A DNA stretch of 64,000 nucleotides, taken from contig DYJD01000012.1 in NCBI GenBank assembly GCA_020723325.1, forward strand, positions 86,286 through 150,285, written 5' to 3'. A program made the translations under genes and the position numbers. Positions 22,301 to 30,194 of this stretch are shown in pieces. The stretch is from Desulfosudis oleivorans (lineage in GTDB: Bacteria; Desulfobacterota; Desulfobacteria; Desulfobacterales; SURF-7). The notes below the pieces were generated by a model. The model saw nothing but the letters and a program-made list of their open reading frames with translations, was not told where the DNA came from and made no database searches. How positions within the stretch are numbered: position 1 is the stretch's first letter; each line of letters begins with the position of its first letter.

Positions 22301-22355
22301 TCAGGGACTTGATTTGCTGGGCGCAATGTTGGAGCCGCCGGGTTCCCGCTGTTAG
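19311..22355 (+). CDS. Large zinc-ribbon/TPR protein with a duplicated unknown domain
   Basis: The start is placed at 19311, with AAAGGAG 7 bases before the ATG; the 38 extra residues of the longer frame come from the palindromic repeat. Of 1,014 residues, the first 25 hold a zinc ribbon (CVKC...CPFC). Residues ~40-190 and ~250-360 look like two copies of one domain: compare VGSYFGEVLRRIWGGQW with LGCYLGEVFRRLGGDW, each followed by an aromatic-rich segment ending in a KRxxxG-type stretch. From ~370 to the end come a dozen or more TPR units (DQAMAADPKDPKVYDHKA, YDRIIERFPTDE). There is no signal peptide, so it is cytosolic. It is probably an assembly or protein-interaction scaffold; no enzymatic motif is seen. 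The stop overlaps that of the convergent alanine dehydrogenase gene by three bases. Confidence 0.8.
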   Translation: MPQPIKCVKCSRPYNPTFAACPFCKNPTVPVGSPTAGMKIDYVAYAERFAQDKIYLDVDFSLATITTLDVFIDDSWGTAGEAPEAETWKPKEGKWAVILNVGSYFGEVLRRIWGGQWIEDPDHGCDPLWTMVKLPPGITVFPIAKVYKRFKNGREDALEPLLQTLLPRLAVKPQNPESWLRQIAFFEKVKRFDLALIFYERLLRLPIPLSHKQQLEARMNQARNQVQHEATLDFVKGEEEIVSVLELAGVKPDHSPASLAGIDTWLYHYWGSEPKQKEEVESYEKDEWRLGCYLGEVFRRLGGDWRMDTAFPAASHIIWPSGFQTCPFTYFSKRLERGADYPVYAQFEFCRKLLIERKDIPAVGDESEAWLDQAEYQADSFTGNRHVGLQMALKALQYNPDSLRGHLLACKWTLAIGKEPAKAMEHLQRAADLGAEDVEIRRWRMRIFESQGEHAAQVEAARKVQTLVPEDKESRISEAMGLYALKRYAEALAVLEQALCPEAEPVEYRAWLRLGDCQYQLGRKDDALESWRKAQDWSLFGMEASWKLGQALEKRQQWQECLTAYRRVLDNSLTPAGIRQKALERQAAVENHPGYLEAEAGRLAGAGKTQEAVDIYRRLTAMNPQHADAWREQGVGLALLGRMEEALTVFDQAMAADPKDPKVYDHKAVTLGRMGRFDAGLALLEQGLEQMPAAASLWTRRSFFLGKLERWPEALASAEKALAIDATAYQPLLFKAEAQRRLQQPDAAIASLQQCLTLVPPEKQQAIQNVHQMIWNLEHPDQPLEPQKAAMLQDQAMALFQAGQPDQGLATFQAALAADSTSFEIWNNYGSVLMSLGRAQEALNGFERALALYPTMDVFQHNKALALERLGRTDEAAAVYDRIIERFPTDESTLQKRTTFLRRMERLDQALASAGQWITAAPRNVHALRIRAEILAKLKRFDESLTDYDRAIALSPNDRKIWLEKSVALADAGKTDESFELISKAFEDKAFADEYHRQGLDLLGAMLEPPGSRC

Positions 22356-23458
22356 AATTTCACCTCTTCGAATTCCAGGTTTACGGCCTCGGCCACTTCC
22401 TTGCGGGTGAGTTTGCCCTTGTAAAGGTTTAATCCTTTGGCCAAGGCCGGATCATCATGCAAGGCTTTTTTCACTCCCTTGTTGGCCAGGGCCAGAACAT
22501 AGGGCAAGGTGGCATTGGTCAAGGCATAGGTGGAGGTGCGCGGCACCTGGCCGGGCATGTTGGTCACGCAGTAATGCACGATGCCGTCCACGATGTAGGT
22601 CGGGTCGTCATGGGTGGTGGGCCGGCTGGTTTCGGCGCAGCCGCCCTGATCAATAGCCACATCCACCAGGGCCGAACCCGGTTCCATTTGCTGCAAGTAG
22701 GAACGTTTGATCAGTTTAGGGGCCCGGGCCCCGGGAATCAGCACGGTCCCGATCACAAGATCCGCCTGGGTGACACTCGCCTCGATATTGGTGGGATTGG
22801 ACATGAGGGTGATCACATGGGAATGGAACAAGTGGTCCAATTGGCGCAAGCGATTCAAATTGATATCCAGAATGGTCACATAGGCGCCCATGCCCATGGC
22901 CAGTTGGGCCGCATTGACCCCGGCGATGCCGCCGCCCAGAATGGTCACCTTGGCCGGAGCCACGCCGGGCACGCCGGACATCAACAAGCCTTTGCCGCCG
23001 TTGCGGGTTTCCAGGCAATTACAGCCCACCTGGACCGCCAGCCGGCCGGCCACTTCGCTCATGGGCGTCAACAGGGGCAAACTGCAGTCATTGAGCTGGA
23101 TGGTCTCATAAGCAATGCCGATGATCTTGCGCTCCAACAATTTTCGGGTCAAGATTTCGTCCGCCGCCAGGTGCAGATAGGTGAACAGGATCTGGCCGGG
23201 CTGCATGCGCTCGAATTCCGGATCAATGGGTTCCTTGACTTTGACGATCATGTCGGCTTCACCCCAGATTTCAGCCGGGGTGGCCAATATCTGTGCGCCC
23301 ATGCGGGCATAGTCCTCATCCGTGATGCCGGAGCCGATTCCGGCGTTTTTCTCCACAAAGACTTCATGGCCTTTTTCCACCAGGGCGAATACCCCGGCCG
23401 GGGTCAGGGCCACCCGTCTTTCCCGGATTTTGATTTCATTGGGTACTCCGATTTTCAT
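22352..23458 (-). CDS. ald: Alanine dehydrogenase
   Basis: NAD-dependent reversible oxidative deamination of L-alanine to pyruvate and ammonia. At 368 residues it matches the family length. [20 protein letters not shown] is the standard N-terminus with the substrate-binding Arg. [10 protein letters not shown] (~73-80) holds the catalytic Lys and YLHLAAD (~94-100) the catalytic His. [18 protein letters not shown] (~174-191) followed by TILDIN is the NAD fold with its acidic terminator. AAGGAGGAAG gives a strong ribosome site. It is transcribed after the TetR gene on the same strand with only 29 bases between, so the two may be one unit. This makes alanine/pyruvate balance a possible part of the TetR regulon. 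Confidence 0.95.
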
Positions 23459-23487: not shown

Positions 23488-24180
23488 CTAGCGCGGCGCA
23501 AGCCCGCCCCGGATAAAGCGCATCATGCCTTGGATGATGCGTTCATCGTTTTCAAGGGCGTCTTCGCCGGCAAAGATTTTCATGCGTTCCCTGAAATACT
23601 CTGTGGTATAGGAATATTGCAACATCATGATGAGGTTGTCCAGGCAAAAGGCCGTCACCGATGCATCGATGCCCTCGTCCACCACGCCGTTCTGTTTGGA
23701 CAGGGTCAGCAGGGACTGATAAAAATGGGCCGAGATGGTCTCCATCTTGCGGGAAAGCATCACCGACAGATGGGAAAGCCCTTCGGAAGCAATATCCACA
23801 TAAATCTGGTTTAATTCCGGATAGGCCCGGGAATAATGCTGGGCGGCCCGCAACAACCGCTCGATTTTATCATAAATATCCCCGGCTTTTAAATCCACTT
23901 CCGCCAGGACCCCGGCCAGGACCTGATAGCCGTAATCCATAATGGTCAGGAAAAGGTCTTCCTTGGAAACAAAATACTTGTACATGGAACCGATGCTGAT
24001 GCCGGCTTTGCGGGCAATGACATTGATATTGGCGGCCCGAAAGCCGTTGGCGGCAAATTCGGAAGCGGCGGCCTTAAGGATTTTCTCCCGTTTTTTTTCA
24101 TCTATTTTTTCAAATGTTTCCGTATAATGCTTCTTTACCGTATAACCGTTGTCCTGAAATTCTTTTTTGGGATAATTCAT
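23488..24180 (-). CDS. TetR-family transcriptional regulator
   Basis: 230 residues with the TetR DNA-binding helix-turn-helix at ~35-80 (ILKAAASEFAANGFRAANIN, ARKAGISIGSMYKYFVSKED) and a helical ligand-binding domain after it. AAGGA lies 8 bases before the ATG. It is divergent from the SCP2/aminotransferase/transketolase operon, and the 141-base gap between the two carries a palindrome of TetR-operator type, so it very likely represses that operon and itself. The N-terminal 25 residues before the HTH are longer than usual. TetR proteins of this kind often respond to acyl-CoA or lipid-like ligands; that would suit the SCP2-like neighbours but is inference. Confidence 0.9.
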   Translation of the reverse strand: MNYPKKEFQDNGYTVKKHYTETFEKIDEKKREKILKAAASEFAANGFRAANINVIARKAGISIGSMYKYFVSKEDLFLTIMDYGYQVLAGVLAEVDLKAGDIYDKIERLLRAAQHYSRAYPELNQIYVDIASEGLSHLSVMLSRKMETISAHFYQSLLTLSKQNGVVDEGIDASVTAFCLDNLIMMLQYSYTTEYFRERMKIFAGEDALENDERIIQGMMRFIRGGLAPR

Positions 24181-24221: not shown

Positions 24222-24267
24222 TTGACTTTTTCATGCCTTCATATGCTATAAGTGAGCAAGCACTCAC
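24222..24267 (+). promoter_or_regulatory. Sigma-70-type promoter overlapped by a TetR-type operator
   Basis: TTGACT at 24222-24227 and GCTATA/CTATAA near 24245-24251 give 17-18 base spacing. Immediately downstream GTGAGCAAGCACTCAC (24252-24267) has 5-bp arms GTGAG/CTCAC around 6 bases, and further CTCAC/CTCACT half-sites follow to 24280. Repressor bound here would cover the start of transcription for the operon beginning at 24322 and lie within reach of the divergent tetR promoter. Confidence 0.65.
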
Positions 24268-24321
24268 TCACATGCTCACTATACTCTGAGCAACAGCACT
24301 TTGCAAGGGGGCATTTTCATT

Positions 24322-25083
24322 ATGACGGCTGAATTAATCAAATCCAATTTAAATTTATATGCAGTCCTGCAAAACCTGGAAGACCTGACGGCCTGGGACC
24401 CGGAAATGAAGGCCTTCACCGCAAACTGGAACATCTCCATCCAGTTCAGTGTGCTGAAAGGCCCCCAAGCCTATATCTTGTTCCAGGGCGGTACCTGCAA
24501 GGTGGGAAAAGGGGCCTTGCCTGATCCGGTGGTAAAACTTTTTTTCCTATCCCCGGCCCATTTGAACCGCATGATGGACGGCAAGGGCAATCCCATTCCC
24601 CTCAAAGGGTTCACCAAACTGCCTTTTCTGGCCAAGGATTTCGCCCGGCTTACGTCCCGGCTGGAGTATTTTCTGAAGCCCAAGGACGAATTGCTGGCCA
24701 AGGCCGACTACCTGGCCATGAACACCCGCCTGACCATGAACACCGCCGCCTTTGCCGTGGCCGAGCTGGGTTTGCTGGACCCCCTTGCCAAGCTGGCGGC
24801 GGCCCATATCCGCAACGGCGCGGTGCTCATGAAAATCCTGCCGGACGGCCCGGCGGTGCACATTATTTTCAACAACGGCCGCATCCAGCCCGGACGGGGT
24901 GAAATCGACAAACCCATGGCCTGCATGTTCATGCAGGATCTGCAAGTGGCCAATGCCTTTTTGAACGGCAAGCTGGATGCCTTTAGCGCCATTGCCTCAG
25001 GCCAGGTCATGATCAAGGGCCAGACCCCCATGCTGGACTCCATGAGTCTGATTTTAGACCGGATACCCCATTATTTGTCATAA
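24322..25083 (+). CDS. SCP2-like (sterol-carrier/lipid-binding) domain protein, first gene of TetR-controlled operon
   Basis: The chosen ATG at 24322 follows AAGGGGG; the frame also opens at a TTG at 24301. The 253-residue protein has the hallmark SCP2 sandwich pattern, with a strand carrying NISIQFSVLKGPQAYILFQGG, then PDPVVKLFFLSPAHLNRMMDGKG and an IPLKGF segment. A second lower-similarity half (AVHIIFNNGRIQPGRGEIDK, FLNGKLDAFSAIASGQVMIKG) looks like a repeat of the fold. There is no signal peptide. SCP2 domains bind fatty acyl chains, sterols or acyl-CoA, so this protein may present a lipid-like substrate to the enzymes encoded behind it. The spacing to the aminotransferase is 15 bases. 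It resembles the protein at 28277 in general character but not closely. Confidence 0.75.
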   Translation: MTAELIKSNLNLYAVLQNLEDLTAWDPEMKAFTANWNISIQFSVLKGPQAYILFQGGTCKVGKGALPDPVVKLFFLSPAHLNRMMDGKGNPIPLKGFTKLPFLAKDFARLTSRLEYFLKPKDELLAKADYLAMNTRLTMNTAAFAVAELGLLDPLAKLAAAHIRNGAVLMKILPDGPAVHIIFNNGRIQPGRGEIDKPMACMFMQDLQVANAFLNGKLDAFSAIASGQVMIKGQTPMLDSMSLILDRIPHYLS

Positions 25084-25098
25084 AGAGGATGATATCTT

Positions 25099-26346
25099 AT
25101 GCAAACCTATCAGTATCCCAAATCCCAAGCCTTGTTCCAACGCGCCGTCCAGGTGATTCCCTGCGGCATTTACGGTCATTTCAGCCCGGCGCCGCTGATT
25201 CCGGCCACGGACTATCCTTTTTATACGGAAAAAGCCAAGGGCGCCCGTTTCTGGGATGTGGACGGCAACGAATTCGTGGATTATATGTGCGCTTACGGCC
25301 CCATGGTGCTGGGCTATAACCACCCCCAGGTGGATGCCGCCGCCGCGGCCCAGGTGGCAGCCGGCAATTGTTTCACCGGCGCCTCGCCCCTTATGGTGGA
25401 ATTGGCCGAATGCCTGGTGGACATGATCAGCGGCATGGATTGGGCTTTTTTTGCCAAGAACGGCGGGGATGTGACCAATTATGCCGTCATGGCGGCCCGG
25501 GACGCCACCTGCCGCAAGAAAATCGTCATGATCAAGGGCGGCTATCACGGCGTGGCCCCCTGGATGCAGGCCCCCGGCCACCATGGCCTGCTGGACGACG
25601 ATTGGCGCAACATCATCCGCATCGACTGGAACGATGCCGCCGCCTTTGAACGGGTCATTCAGGAGCATCCCAAGGACATCGCCGCCTTCATCGCCACGCC
25701 CTACCATGTTCCGGCCTTTAGCGACAGTGTCATGCCGGCCGAGGGGTATTGGAAAAAAATCGAAACCCTGTGCCGTGAGAACGGCATCATCCTCATCAGC
25801 GACGATATCCGCCACGGGTTTCGGCTGGACCTCAAAGGTTCCCACCATCATTTCGGCTTTCAACCGGATCTGGTCTGTTTCTGCAAGGCCATTGCCAACG
25901 GTTATCCCATTTCGGCCCTGATGGGCACCGCTGCCATGAAACCTATGGTGTCCCGGATTTTTTATACCGGCAGCTACTGGTTCCAGTCCCAGCCCATGGC
26001 CGCGGCCCTCACCACCTTGCAAGAACTGAAGGCCGTGGACGGACCGGAAAAAATGCGGGTCATCGGCGAGAAACTCGGCAACGGGCTAGTGTCGGCCGCG
26101 GCCCGCCACGGCTTTGATTTGCGTATCACCGGCGCCCCGGCCATGCCCTATCTGCGCATCACCGATGATGAAAGCCTGATGCTGCACCAGGATTGGTGCG
26201 CGGAATGCACCAAGCGCGGGGCCTATTTCACCCCCCACCACAACTGGTTCGTGTCCACGGCCCATACGGACGAGGATATTGAAAAGACCCTGGCCATTGC
26301 CGACGAGGCTTTTCAGGTGGTCCGGAAAAAATACAATCGGCTTTAA
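25099..26346 (+). CDS. Class III PLP-dependent aminotransferase (glutamate-1-semialdehyde aminomutase-like)
   Basis: 415 residues with the complete class III core: VIPCGIYGH near the N-terminus, WDVDGNEFVDYMCAYGPMVLGYNHP typical of the GSA-aminomutase branch (seen in pieces around 50-75), YHGVAPW near 150, LISDDIRHGFR with the PLP-N1 Asp near 233, and FCKAIANGYPISAL with the Schiff-base lysine at Lys263. The usual acidic residue two positions after the Asp is replaced by Arg (DDIRHGF where DEV..GF is common), which may shift substrate choice. True GSA aminomutase is unlikely given the context. The amino acceptor is unknown; the neighbouring transketolase and hydroxypyruvate reductase suggest a hydroxy- or keto-substrate. 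AGAGGA precedes the ATG. Confidence 0.85.
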   Translation: MQTYQYPKSQALFQRAVQVIPCGIYGHFSPAPLIPATDYPFYTEKAKGARFWDVDGNEFVDYMCAYGPMVLGYNHPQVDAAAAAQVAAGNCFTGASPLMVELAECLVDMISGMDWAFFAKNGGDVTNYAVMAARDATCRKKIVMIKGGYHGVAPWMQAPGHHGLLDDDWRNIIRIDWNDAAAFERVIQEHPKDIAAFIATPYHVPAFSDSVMPAEGYWKKIETLCRENGIILISDDIRHGFRLDLKGSHHHFGFQPDLVCFCKAIANGYPISALMGTAAMKPMVSRIFYTGSYWFQSQPMAAALTTLQELKAVDGPEKMRVIGEKLGNGLVSAAARHGFDLRITGAPAMPYLRITDDESLMLHQDWCAECTKRGAYFTPHHNWFVSTAHTDEDIEKTLAIADEAFQVVRKKYNRL

Positions 26347-26362
26347 TCAACAGGAGGAACCC

Positions 26363-27199
26363 ATGCCCATCACCGATCAGGAAATCAAAGAACTTTCCGC
26401 CGTGGCCCGGCAATTGCGCAAGGACATCATCGACATCACCTACTGGGCCGGCGGCGCCCACATCGGCGGCGCCATGAGCATGGCGGAGATGCTGGTGCTG
26501 CTATATTATAAATACCTGAACGTGGACCCCAAAAAACCGGACTGGGAGGAACGCGACCGCATGGTCCTGAGCAAGGGCCACGGCGGCGTGGGCTATGCAC
26601 CGCTCCTGGCCCGCAAAGGCTATTTTGAATTTGATCAATTAAAGGAATTCAACAAATTCAAATCACCCTTCGGCATGCACCTGGACGGCCTCAAGGTCAA
26701 AGGCGTGGATGTGTCCACCGGCTCCCTGGGCCATGGATTGCCCATTGCCGCCGGTCTGGCCCTGGGGGCCAGGCTCCAGAAAAAAAACTGGCGCACCTAC
26801 TGCATTCTCGGCGACGGGGAATGCAATGAAGGCACCAATTGGGAAGCGGCCATGACCATCAACCATTACAAACTCACCAACCTCCTTACCTTTGTGGACC
26901 GTAACAAGCTGATGATCGACGGCACTACCGAGCAGATCATGGGCCTTGAACCCTTTGCCGACAAATGGAAGGCCTTTGGCTTCATCGTTAAGGAAGTGAA
27001 CGGCCATGATTTCAAGGAACTTTCCGCAGCCATAGACTTCGCCCTGTCCCAGAACAAGGCGCCGGTGGTGATCATCAGCCACACCATCAAGGGCAAAGGC
27101 GTGGACTTCATGGAAAACGAAGTAAAATGGCACTACGGCGGCCTGGATACGGACAGCCGCGACAAGGCCAAACAATCCGTAGACCGGATGTATGGTTAA
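26363..27199 (+). CDS. Transketolase, N-terminal (TPP-binding) subunit
   Basis: The ATG at 26363 follows CAGGAGGAACCC and sits 16 bases after the aminotransferase stop; the longer frame overlaps that gene. The 278 residues contain SKGHGGVGYAPLLA, the conserved His-rich loop, and the TPP motif GDGECNEGTNWEAAM...DRNK (near 154-187). HIGGAMSMAEML matches the start of split transketolases. With the next gene it rebuilds a full transketolase, as in archaeal and many anaerobic two-subunit enzymes. Transketolases move a two-carbon ketol unit and can use hydroxypyruvate as an irreversible donor, which is notable with a hydroxypyruvate reductase in the same operon. Confidence 0.92.
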   Translation: MPITDQEIKELSAVARQLRKDIIDITYWAGGAHIGGAMSMAEMLVLLYYKYLNVDPKKPDWEERDRMVLSKGHGGVGYAPLLARKGYFEFDQLKEFNKFKSPFGMHLDGLKVKGVDVSTGSLGHGLPIAAGLALGARLQKKNWRTYCILGDGECNEGTNWEAAMTINHYKLTNLLTFVDRNKLMIDGTTEQIMGLEPFADKWKAFGFIVKEVNGHDFKELSAAIDFALSQNKAPVVIISHTIKGKGVDFMENEVKWHYGGLDTDSRDKAKQSVDRMYG

Positions 27200-27264
27200 A
27201 AATGGACCCCATCCACAATTCCTAATTCCTAATTCGTAATTCATAATTTTTAATAGGGGGGTAT
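27200..27264. repeat. Short AT-rich degenerate repeat between the transketolase halves
   Basis: Four imperfect ATTC(C/G)TAATTC-type units run through 27218-27250 before the ribosome site AGGGGGG of the next gene. Similar runs are common as dispersed microrepeats. It has no terminator shape, so co-transcription of the two subunits is expected. Confidence 0.6.
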
Positions 27265-28275
27265 ATGAGCGAAGGCCTAACCTGGAATGTATATGATGCC
27301 AACACCATGACACAGGCGGACATCTACGGCGAAGTCCTCTGCCAACTGGGGGAACGCGACCCCAAGATCGTGGGCTTGTCCGCGGATCTTGCCAAATCCA
27401 CCAAAATCGGCAAGTTCGCCGACAAATTTCCGGAACGTTTTTTCAATGTGGGCATTGCCGAGCAAAACCTCTTCGGTGTTGCCGCCGGCCTGGCCAAAGC
27501 CGGCCTCCTGCCCTTTGTTTCCACCATGGCGGTATTCACCACCCTGCGGGCCGCCGAGCAGGTACGCACGGATATCTGCTACCAGAACCTGTCCGTGAAG
27601 ATCATCGCCACCCATGCCGGCACCTCCTTTGGCGCGGCCGGCACCACCCACCATTGCACCGAGGACCTGGCCGTCATGCGCGCCCTGGCCAACATGACCG
27701 TGATCGCGCCGGCCGACGGCATTGAAACCGCCAACGCCGTCAAGGCCTGCGTCAACTATCCCGGACCGGTGTATATCCGCATCGGCCGCGGCTTTGAACC
27801 GCGCTGTTACGAGAACGAAGACTACGGCTTTGAGATCGGCAAGTCCGTGTTGATGCATCCGGGCACGGACATCACCCTGATCTGCTGCGGCGTCACCGTG
27901 CTGCAGGCCCTGGAGGCGGCCAAATACCTGAAGCAAAACGACGGCCTGAGCGTGCGCGTGCTCAACATGCACACCATCAAGCCCCTGGACGCGGAGGCCG
28001 TACTGGCGGCCGTGCGGGAAACCCGGCGCATCATCACCTTTGAAGACCATAATATCCAGGGCGGTCTGGGCAGTGCCGTGGCCGACGTCATTGCCGCCTC
28101 GGGCAAGGGCTGCGCCTTTGAAAAAGTCGGCATTCCGGATTGCTTCTGCATCGTGGGTTATCCCGAGGATCTTTACAGTCACTACCAGTTCGACACCGAC
28201 GGGATCATCCGCAAGGTCAAGGAAGTCATGGGCAAGGATTTTGAAGAAGACGAAGACTGGGAAGATGAGGTGTGA
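27265..28275 (+). CDS. Transketolase, C-terminal (pyrimidine and transketolase_C) subunit
   Basis: 336 residues beginning 65 bases after the N-terminal subunit, with TAGGGGGGTAT before the ATG. FFNVGIAEQNLFGVAAGLA (~60-78) carries the glutamate that activates the TPP aminopyrimidine ring. GTSFGAAGTTHHCTEDLAVM (~115-134) is the usual pyrimidine-domain loop. The region from ~190 is the transketolase C-terminal domain (LICCGVTVLQALEAA, VRVLNMHTIKPLDAEAV, EDHNIQGGLGSAV). It ends in an acidic tail. Its stop is one base from the start of the SCP2-like gene that follows, a sign of translational coupling. Confidence 0.92.
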   Translation: MSEGLTWNVYDANTMTQADIYGEVLCQLGERDPKIVGLSADLAKSTKIGKFADKFPERFFNVGIAEQNLFGVAAGLAKAGLLPFVSTMAVFTTLRAAEQVRTDICYQNLSVKIIATHAGTSFGAAGTTHHCTEDLAVMRALANMTVIAPADGIETANAVKACVNYPGPVYIRIGRGFEPRCYENEDYGFEIGKSVLMHPGTDITLICCGVTVLQALEAAKYLKQNDGLSVRVLNMHTIKPLDAEAVLAAVRETRRIITFEDHNIQGGLGSAVADVIAASGKGCAFEKVGIPDCFCIVGYPEDLYSHYQFDTDGIIRKVKEVMGKDFEEDEDWEDEV

Positions 28276-28276
28276 T

Positions 28277-29056
28277 ATGGCGACCCCCACTGAATTGATG
28301 AGCGCACGCATCTTTTTGCGGGCCCTGTTTCCGGTGATGAAAGTGGTCCTGGCCGACGACCCCAAGATGAAAAAGAAATTCGCAGGGGTTTCCGGCAATG
28401 TGCAGTTCGCTGCCAAGGACAGTGCCGGCGATATCGGCGCCTACCTGAATTTCCAGAACGGCGCCCTGGAAATTGTTCAGGGCTTCTGCCCCAACCCGGA
28501 CATCACCTTTGCCTTCGGCAGTGTGGCCAAAATGAATGCCATGCTGGCCGGCAAGCCGGTGATCCCGATTATTAAAGGCTTCTGGAAGCTGGGCCTGCTG
28601 ATCAAGGTGTTCGCCCTGCTCCTGTACCTCAAGGTCCTCATGCCCAATGCCCGTCCCAAGGATCCCTTTAAACAGCGCATGAAGGTCAAGCTGACCGTTT
28701 ACATGATCACCACGGCCCTAAGCCAGTACAACAAGGGCGGTGATCCGGAAATGGCCAAATGGACCGCCAAACAGCCGGAACGGATTTACCAGATGTCCGT
28801 GGACGGCGAACCGGACATCGCCGGCTATGTGCGCGTCAAGGCCGGCAAATCGAAATCCGGCCGGGGTTTTTACGCCCGGCGGCATTCCTTTGTGCACATG
28901 CGTTTCAACGGCGTCAGCGGCGCTTTGCCCGTTATTCTCAATGATGTGAATATGGTGGAAGCTATACGCCGGGGCTATTTGTCCGTGGAGGGCTCGCCGG
29001 AATACGGCCGGGACATCGGGGATTTCATGATGCGGATTCAGGCTTTGACTACCTGA
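28277..29056 (+). CDS. Second SCP2-like lipid-binding domain protein
   Basis: The ATG at 28277 sits one base after the transketolase stop, and its likely ribosome site (GAGGTG) lies inside that gene's end. The 259 residues include an SCP2-type segment (DIGAYLNFQNGALEIVQGF, PDITFAFGSVAKMNAMLAGK) followed by a hydrophobic stretch LGLLIKVFALLLYLKVLMP (~108-126) that could dock on a membrane. A C-terminal region (DGEPDIAGYVRVKAGKSKSG, FVHMRFNGVSGALPV) does not match the first SCP2 protein. Two SCP2-like proteins around one enzyme set argue for a hydrophobic intermediate. The biochemical role is inferred from fold and context only. Confidence 0.75.
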   Translation: MATPTELMSARIFLRALFPVMKVVLADDPKMKKKFAGVSGNVQFAAKDSAGDIGAYLNFQNGALEIVQGFCPNPDITFAFGSVAKMNAMLAGKPVIPIIKGFWKLGLLIKVFALLLYLKVLMPNARPKDPFKQRMKVKLTVYMITTALSQYNKGGDPEMAKWTAKQPERIYQMSVDGEPDIAGYVRVKAGKSKSGRGFYARRHSFVHMRFNGVSGALPVILNDVNMVEAIRRGYLSVEGSPEYGRDIGDFMMRIQALTT

Positions 29057-29057
29057 A

Positions 29058-30194
29058 ATGAGCACAAACCAATGGAAAGTGCATCATCCCACCGGCCGCT
29101 TCCGGGTAGTGGTCACCCGTAATTTACCGGGTGAGGGCTGGCTGAGGATCTTGCAACAAGCCGATTGCCGGGTGGAAATCTGTTTGTCCCCGGAAGGCCT
29201 ATCCAAACAAGAAATCCTGGCGGCCCTGGGAAAAGCTTGTGACGCCGCCATCGGCCAGTTGACCGAGACCTGGGATGCGGATCTGTTTGCGGCCCTGAAA
29301 ACCGCCGGCGGCCGGGTGTACGGCAACTATGCCGTGGGCTTTAACAATGTGGATCTGGCCGCCGCCACCCGCAACGGCATTGCGGTGGGCAACACCCCCG
29401 GGGTCCTCACCGAAGCCACGGCGGAACTGGCCGTGGCCCTTACCTTGGCCGCCGCCAGACGTCTGGGCGAATCCGAACGTTTCCTGCGGTCCGGCAAATT
29501 CAGCGGCTGGCAGCCGGATCTGTTTCTGGGCGAATTGTTATGGCGCAAGACCCTGGGAGTTGTCGGCGCCGGCCGGATCGGGTCGACTTACGCCCGCATG
29601 CTGGTCCAGGGCCATGAAATGAACCTAATCTACTACAGCCCAAGGTCCAATCCGGAACTGGAGGCGGAAGTGACCGCTTTTGGTGAATACCTGAAAGCAA
29701 GGGGCCGGGAGCCGGTGACTTGCCGGCGCGCCGCCCATCTGGATGAATTGTTGCAAACAGCGGACGTTGTCAGCCTGCATACGATCCTGAATGCCGAAAC
29801 CCGTCACTTGATCAACGCCCGGTGCCTCAGCCTGATGAAACCCGATGCCGTTCTCGTCAACACCAGTCGCGGCCCGGTCATCGACGAAACCGCTCTGGTG
29901 GCCCATTGCCGGACCCATCCCAACTTCCGGGTGGGCCTGGATGTGTTTGAAAATGAGCCGGAACTGGCAGCGGGACTGGCCCAGTTGGAAAACGTGGTGC
30001 TGGTGCCCCACATCGCCTCGGCCACCCGCTGGACCCGGGAAGGTATGGCCGTGCTGACCGCCTGCAACGTGGCGGCAATTCTGCAAAACCATGGGGTTTG
30101 GCCCGAAGCGGATATTCGCCCCTTCCTGTCGGAGAATCCACCCCAGGCTGCGCCCAGCATATTGAATGCAAGGGAACTGAATGTAAAGAAGTGA
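29058..30194 (+). CDS. Plant-type hydroxypyruvate reductase (D-2-hydroxyacid dehydrogenase)
   Basis: 378 residues, one base after the previous stop. NAD(P)H-dependent reduction of hydroxypyruvate or glyoxylate is expected. Gly-rich VVGAGRIGSTYARM (~170-183) is the cofactor site. NTSRGPVIDETAL holds the catalytic Arg, GLDVFENEPEL the Glu and VPHIASATRWTREGM the His. The whole length, including the N-terminal FRVVVTRNLPGEGW...CRVEIC and the IGQLTETW, NNVDLAAATRNGIAVGNTPG and C-terminal PSILNARELN segments, closely resembles the peroxisomal hydroxypyruvate reductase of plants (HPR1) as I remember it, more than ordinary bacterial GhrA/GhrB. As last gene of the operon it may remove or regenerate hydroxypyruvate for the transketolase. 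Confidence 0.88.
   Translation: MSTNQWKVHHPTGRFRVVVTRNLPGEGWLRILQQADCRVEICLSPEGLSKQEILAALGKACDAAIGQLTETWDADLFAALKTAGGRVYGNYAVGFNNVDLAAATRNGIAVGNTPGVLTEATAELAVALTLAAARRLGESERFLRSGKFSGWQPDLFLGELLWRKTLGVVGAGRIGSTYARMLVQGHEMNLIYYSPRSNPELEAEVTAFGEYLKARGREPVTCRRAAHLDELLQTADVVSLHTILNAETRHLINARCLSLMKPDAVLVNTSRGPVIDETALVAHCRTHPNFRVGLDVFENEPELAAGLAQLENVVLVPHIASATRWTREGMAVLTACNVAAILQNHGVWPEADIRPFLSENPPQAAPSILNARELNVKK

Follow-up and report, generated by a model that had tools for sequence, protein, structure and literature searches.

The 64,000-nucleotide stretch of Desulfosudis oleivorans DNA analysed here (the window; GenBank assembly GCA_020723325.1, contig DYJD01000012.1, positions 86,286 to 150,285) comes from a 7.2 Mb genome that is 99.5% complete and carries six plus-strand open reading frames at 24322-30194, separated by gaps of 15, 16, 65, 1 and 1 bases and lying beside a divergent TetR-family regulator gene (Table 1). 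The six genes encode two SCP2-like proteins (SCP2A and SCP2B), a class III aminotransferase (AT3), the two halves of a split transketolase (TKN and TKC) and a D-2-hydroxyacid dehydrogenase. We propose that this operon probably breaks down sphingoid bases without a sphingosine kinase or a sphingosine-1-phosphate lyase. A preliminary description of the locus had recognized the six genes with these gaps, the divergent TetR gene, the gene families and a palindromic operator over the promoter, and had read them as a single regulated unit. The coordinates, Pfam matches and motif counts given below agree with that layout. Families, folds, residues, gene order and the operator with its places were all computed.

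Table 1 Features of the module locus, with the matches on which the assignments rest
Feature	Positions	Strand	Basis
Alanine dehydrogenase	22352-23458	-	TIGR00518 541 bits (cut-off 392)
TetR-family regulator, divergent	23488-24180	-	PF00440 53 bits
Possible -35 TTGACT (24222) and -10 TATAAG (24247), 19-base spacer	24222-24252	+	Read by eye
Putative TetR operator GAGCAAGCACTCACTC	24254-24269	Strand-neutral	Just 3' of TTGACT/TATAAG
SCP2A, SCP2-like, two SCP2-like halves	24322-25083	+	PF02036 35.1 bits in two stretches (cut-off 21.3)
AT3, class III aminotransferase, FumI type	25099-26346	+	Aminotran_3 143 bits; PDB 6hbs/6hbv
TKN, N-terminal half of split transketolase	26363-27199	+	Transketolase_N 151 bits; PDB 6yak 255 bits
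TKC, C-terminal half of split transketolase	27265-28275	+	Transket_pyr 140 and Transketolase_C 98 bits; PDB 6yaj 277 bits
SCP2B, second SCP2-like protein	28277-29056	+	PF02036 22.6 bits, barely above cut-off 21.3
D-2-hydroxyacid dehydrogenase	29058-30194	+	2-Hacid_dh 75/157 bits (PF02826 157)

A search with SCP2A of 59 genomes (that of the window included) gave strong matches in six, and five relatives keep AT3, TKN, TKC and SCP2B in this order behind SCP2A. An SCP2B profile search of species-genome contigs gave 63 homologous loci, the neighbourhoods of which were read from codon-scored gene picks. As the order SCP2A-AT3-TKN-TKC-SCP2B is complete in 32 of the 63, the grouping of these five genes is not chance. 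L076 has the full order but with an additional open reading frame between TKN and TKC, and several of the loci lacking the full order are interrupted by contig ends. The module loci come from six phyla (Desulfobacterota/Deltaproteobacteria, Spirochaetes, Hydrogenedentota, Myxococcota, Verrucomicrobia and Actinobacteria/Thermoleophilia), with single module-type loci in the gammaproteobacterium Parendozoicomonas (L055) and in a clostridial metagenome-assembled genome (L081). A short form, TKN-TKC-SCP2B without AT3, was found in 11 loci despite more than 1.5 kb of upstream sequence (L026, L028, L032, L053, L055, L058, L070, L071, L078, L081 and L082).

The intergenic region between the TetR gene and SCP2A contains the palindrome GAGYRANNNNTYRCTC in 15 of 16 divergent loci, the window included, and in none of 200 single-base shuffles of each region; the motif is more than chance. 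A differently spaced palindrome had no match in the window, and the operon promoter read by eye was not picked by a consensus promoter scan. A TetR homologue is present in 20 of the 32 full-order loci. Scanning nine module genomes with GAGYRANNNNTCACTCR gave 14 distinct places (none in G061; one match for the reversed control), which by their coordinates are eight module promoters, three ceramidase genes, two sets of MFS and FadL-type genes and one alanine dehydrogenase gene. The operator-linked neutral ceramidase genes are those of the window's own genome (C113), Desulfobacterium SW.3.97 and Desulfoluna limicola, and all three proteins carry both PF04734 (548-570 bits) and PF17048 (154-175 bits). 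In G060 and G059 the operator precedes a gene without an assigned family together with genes for an MFS transporter and a FadL-type outer-membrane protein, and in G081 a separate copy precedes alanine dehydrogenase. A FadL-type gene also lies directly behind SCP2B in L036. The ceramidase, FadL and MFS genes would explain substrate supply. A scan with GAGTGANNNNTCACTC of 12 module and three non-module genomes gave 16 places (the reversed control matching one place): 13 module promoters, the Desulfoluna ceramidase and one place each in G077 and G049.

Some neighbours of the operator and of the ceramidases were also recorded. The same pair of membrane-protein genes, which by reading resemble Lgt and a CPBP protease, lies behind the operator-linked ceramidase gene in two genomes (L139, 1250-2729; L141, 1160-2621), and in L041 (27-3050), from a module-bearing spirochaete, a near-operator sequence lies before transhydrogenase-like genes (proton-translocating, by reading). 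In L068 (10182-11459) a secreted-looking protein having the look of an Ntn-hydrolase by eye adjoins SCP2B and could be another ceramide amide hydrolase.

The top match of AT3 in the Protein Data Bank (PDB) is FumI of Sphingopyxis, an aminopentol aminotransferase (6hbs/6hbv; 341 bits, E 9e-101, residues 10-412). The next match scored 165 bits, and the comparison with glutamate-semialdehyde aminomutase likewise favours FumI (341 versus 165 bits). FumI is described as acting on hydrolysed fumonisin B1, an analogue of sphingoid bases, whose 2-amino group it passes to pyruvate to yield alanine (PMC2933618). AT3, of which FumI is the closest solved relative, is proposed to use a like C2 amine, removing the amino group at C2 of sphingoid bases with pyruvate as acceptor. 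The FumI substrate is a 1-deoxy sphingoid analogue (the mycotoxin core), unlike that proposed for AT3, and the likeness is drawn from the proteins.

The solved structure closest to TKN and TKC is the split transketolase of Carboxydothermus (6yak and 6yaj). Residues were counted over 53 TKN rows (52 distinct) and 58 TKC rows (57 distinct), in which the window is counted and one contig enters under two handles (L019 = L026), using E. coli transketolase numbering mapped onto TKN and TKC through the PDB alignments. TKN H106 and H257 are present in 53 of 53 rows and TKC E66, H117, H129 and R175 in 58 of 58, and the thiamine diphosphate and donor residues equivalent to E. coli His100, His261, Glu411 and His473 are kept. 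The Asp469 equivalent is TKC Ala125 in all 58 rows and the Arg91 equivalent is TKN Asn97 in 52 of 53. Judged by these alignments, the module transketolase has lost the canonical sugar-phosphate acceptor-site pair Asp469/Arg91. Both residues are kept in eight of ten other split transketolases of the class (the exceptions being L214 and L223), which were picked from lower-identity matches in a 192-genome sample, and also in a full-length transketolase (L117) encoded by the window's own genome. In the same sample TKC orthologues occur in 21 of the 192 genomes of the class, the window's own and 20 others at 72-83% identity; the further matches are one fragment and, among the matches listed, sequences of at most 46% identity. 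TKN and TKC are proposed to cut the C2-C3 bond of a 2-keto-1,3-diol.

An E. coli transketolase in which Asp469 was changed is described as having been evolved from phosphorylated to polar, then non-polar aliphatic and then aromatic aldehyde acceptors (PMC5073344, PMC6310800). In the variant S385Y/D469T/R520Q, as described, Asp469 is replaced, as it is by Ala125 in TKC. However, that enzyme is man-made, works in the synthetic direction and takes short or aromatic aldehydes, whereas the equivalents of Ser385 and Arg520 are conserved in the module transketolase.

SCP2A and SCP2B each model as what appear, from the order of strands and helices, to be two SCP2-like halves. The AlphaFold models are of moderate confidence, with predicted local distance difference test scores of 79.8 for SCP2A and 76.7 for SCP2B. 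Foldseek matched SCP2A to SCP2 proteins and SCP2-bearing alkylsulfatases (34 matches with E ≤1e-3), and the top matches of SCP2B were again SCP2 proteins (two with E ≤1e-3). The preliminary description had made the meaning of the gene grouping hang on the SCP2 fold of these proteins, and profile matches above the cut-off together with the Foldseek matches support that fold.

The alanine dehydrogenase gene on the far side of the TetR gene had been omitted from the gene set of the preliminary description. Here, and likewise in L021, L022, L077, L023, L025 and L227, it adjoins the module, and it belongs with the gene set. A glycyl radical enzyme of the PFL2/diol-dehydratase type adjoins alanine dehydrogenase in L013 (36-614), L014 (14937-18264) and L016 (25-1029). 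The L014 enzyme scored 646 bits with TIGR01774, under the cut-off of 678, and an activase-like gene is present there by reading. As these enzymes have no tie to the operator, they were set aside as a pathway part.

From these results we infer the substrates, the direction and order of the steps, the roles of the SCP2 proteins and the TetR ligand as follows. A sphingoid base and the direction of breakdown were chosen because of the FumI match of AT3 and because ceramidase and uptake-type genes lie under the shared operator. Where present, the neutral ceramidase would free the sphingoid base from ceramide. SCP2A would present the base to AT3, which would transfer the C2 amino group to pyruvate to give HOCH2-CO-CH(OH)-R and alanine. 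Pyruvate as the amino acceptor would give a role to the alanine dehydrogenase beside the module, which would turn alanine back into pyruvate. In form HOCH2-CO-CH(OH)-R is a transketolase donor, and its cleavage is proposed for the split enzyme: with SCP2B holding the tail, TKN/TKC would cut C2-C3 of the 1,3-dihydroxy-2-ketone and release the long-chain aldehyde R-CHO, whereas the C2 unit would be handed on from thiamine diphosphate, the recipient probably being a sugar phosphate. The fatty aldehyde would be oxidised or activated and then enter beta-oxidation; L058 and L064 carry an aldehyde dehydrogenase gene close to the module, and L041 an acyl-CoA ligase gene. TetR would repress the set until a sphingoid base or a breakdown product binds. 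On balance we favour the view that transamination, a lipid-active split transketolase and SCP2-like carriers make up a new form of sphingoid-base catabolism in at least six phyla, by which carbon would enter the pentose phosphate pathway. The chemistry of an amino- or hydroxy-ketone derived from a lipid, already put forward in the preliminary description, fits this scheme.

Several observations weigh against this reading. The ceramidase link is uneven: in a survey of 50 module genomes (12 of 62 loci being left out) PF04734 was found in 21 at E ≤1e-10, and in only nine at 130 bits or more; matches below 130 bits, of which Hydrogenedentota supplied many, were left out of the ceramidase count. 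Among the relatives PF04734 occurs in three of six full-module genomes versus three of 53 others (p 0.011), and upon dropping the weak G004 match (97.5 bits) the count falls to two of six (p 0.076), so that co-occurrence of ceramidase and module is only a trend. The motif, with up to two mismatches, precedes a ceramidase-family gene in just three of 13 module genomes (none of the three non-module genomes). L068 has no operator; in its genome (G077) a copy stands elsewhere, flanked by pilin-like and polyketide-synthase-like genes, and one operator match also occurs in the non-module genome G049. PF00282, a broad family wider than sphingosine-1-phosphate lyase, occurs in 11 of 12 genomes including that of the window, and thus a lyase route alongside the module is possible. 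The SCP2 models were built on six and eight sequences. The position equivalent to Arg358 (a phosphate contact), position 18, is Ala in 43 of 58 rows, Arg in eight and other residues in seven, and it is unread in most of the comparison sequences. Stereochemistry is a further difficulty. The usual transketolase donors are 3S and natural sphingoid bases would yield the 3R ketone, hence the C3 selectivity of the transketolase would have to be inverted. Loss of the Asp469/Arg91 pair may allow the 3R ketone, but this is a guess.

The short form also counts against this reading. It mostly occurs without a FumI-like enzyme, two of 13 distinct genomes carrying one elsewhere (14 handles give 13 genomes, as G014 = G090, and G093 merely ends at a contig edge). 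In both the myxobacterium (L078/L229) and Parendozoicomonas (L055/L230) the FumI-like gene lies at a separate locus beside an SCP2-like gene (SCP2 by reading). As the short form usually lacks AT3, its transketolase may have other substrates. Some short-form loci sit with genes for DUF362, a different TetR and short-chain dehydrogenases/reductases (SDRs) resembling keto-lipid reductases, and hence the transketolase half may serve several lipids. Neighbours of the short form, often DUF362 with another TetR, were seen at L048 (3771-5627) and L071 (4964-5791) and in L053, L058 and L070. An SDR lies beside the short form in two loci, in one of them fused to an OleD/HpnA-like reductase.

The module might also run in the opposite direction, both of its reaction types being reversible: a fatty aldehyde and a C2 donor would be joined to a 2-keto-1,3-diol that is then aminated. 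Sphingoid bases or other 2-amino-1,3-diol lipids would then be made independently of serine palmitoyltransferase. A search of the window's own genome with the BioF model (E ≤1e-10) gave a single oxoamine synthase match, above the BioF cut-off, and with this related model no serine palmitoyltransferase was found there. Seven of 30 module genomes had no match to the oxoamine synthase family at the same threshold, and its other members were told apart by clustering only. The enzyme of L103 scored 238 bits as a 2-amino-3-ketobutyrate ligase versus 172 as a serine palmitoyltransferase. An oxoamine-synthase-type enzyme (L101-L105, L103 being the one member scored) is common to two full-module spirochaetes and three short-form genomes. 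The SDR that accompanies the short form in L071 and L048 is similar to keto-lipid reductases such as 3-ketosphinganine reductase, although the short-form neighbours may have a different substrate. Engineered transketolase-transaminase cascades, as described, use the same two-enzyme logic, in that order, for amino-alcohol biocatalysis (PMC5813273). However, the shared operator before ceramidase and FadL-type/MFS genes, together with the adjoining alanine dehydrogenase, points to uptake and breakdown, and we consider synthesis unlikely.

Breakdown of a different amino-lipid or lipid ketone, such as a hopanoid side chain or a long-chain amino alcohol, would make the ceramidase link a side branch. 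It would fit the 41 of 50 module genomes without a PF04734 match of at least 130 bits and the short form without AT3, and HpnO, the hopanoid aminotransferase, is also a class III enzyme. AT3 is nevertheless 176 bits nearer to FumI than to any other solved structure and the operator places fit sphingolipid use, and thus another lipid seems improbable. The hopanoid side chain in particular, for which no hopanoid genes were searched, was set back by FumI as the nearest relative and by the ceramidase operator neighbours. A split enzyme with intact thiamine diphosphate and donor residues could also be an ordinary sugar transketolase that lies beside lipid genes by chance and merely recycles C2 units. 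This we regard as very improbable, given the gene order, shared across phyla, in which it is joined by AT3 and two SCP2 genes, the sharp class formed by the TKC orthologues (at least 72% identity), the loss of the Asp469/Arg91 pair and the separate full-length transketolase in the genome.

The proposed breakdown of sphingoid bases by the module can be set beside two known systems. The steroid-17,20-desmolase DesAB of Clostridium scindens is also a split transketolase, and has been assigned removal of HOCH2-CO-C(OH) from cortisol (PMC3735941, PMC7996314, PMC12876203). It is encoded in an inducible operon, and the pentose phosphate pathway was put forward as the destination of its C2 unit (PMC3735941). 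DesAB and TKN/TKC would make a like C2 cut on a lipid, a comparison made by description; no DesAB model was among the NCBIfam matches listed for the window proteins. The steroid is already a ketone, hence no aminotransferase is needed, and desABCD as described is without SCP2 genes. In Pseudomonas aeruginosa the sphingosine-responsive SphR regulon includes ceramidase and sphBCD (PMC5150637, PMC11893366), and in having a ceramidase resembles the regulon proposed here. A periplasmic cytochrome c and an oxidoreductase act there, with a product described as unknown (PMC11893366), and unlike the module the regulon as described there has no named transketolase, SCP2 or FumI-type enzyme.

Bacterial dismantling of sphingoid bases is largely an open question. 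In the openly accessible literature (subscription journals being outside the scope) we found, among the matches listed, no report joining transketolase to sphingoid breakdown. The scheme offers a complete and testable proposal for this process in bacteria that include anaerobes living in sediments and water columns. If correct, transketolase would itself count as a carbon-carbon lyase of lipids, extending the steroid precedent of DesAB. SCP2-like proteins would have a role in bacteria, and biocatalysis of long-chain amino diols would have a natural transketolase and transaminase pair.

The sixth gene stands apart. In the preliminary description, scattering of the six genes in relatives was named as a sign of chance grouping; the first five keep their order, whereas for the D-2-hydroxyacid dehydrogenase neither the gene picks of the remaining loci nor a tblastn search of L013-L019 and L224-L227 gave a match. 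It is a local passenger outside the conserved module. The idea that hydroxypyruvate is a donor or by-product had rested on this last gene and was dropped, as none of the other loci examined carries the dehydrogenase. Its top NCBIfam model was glyoxylate reductase (249 bits, under the cut-off of 455), and we speculate that it may oxidise 2-hydroxy acids from hydroxylated sphingolipids.

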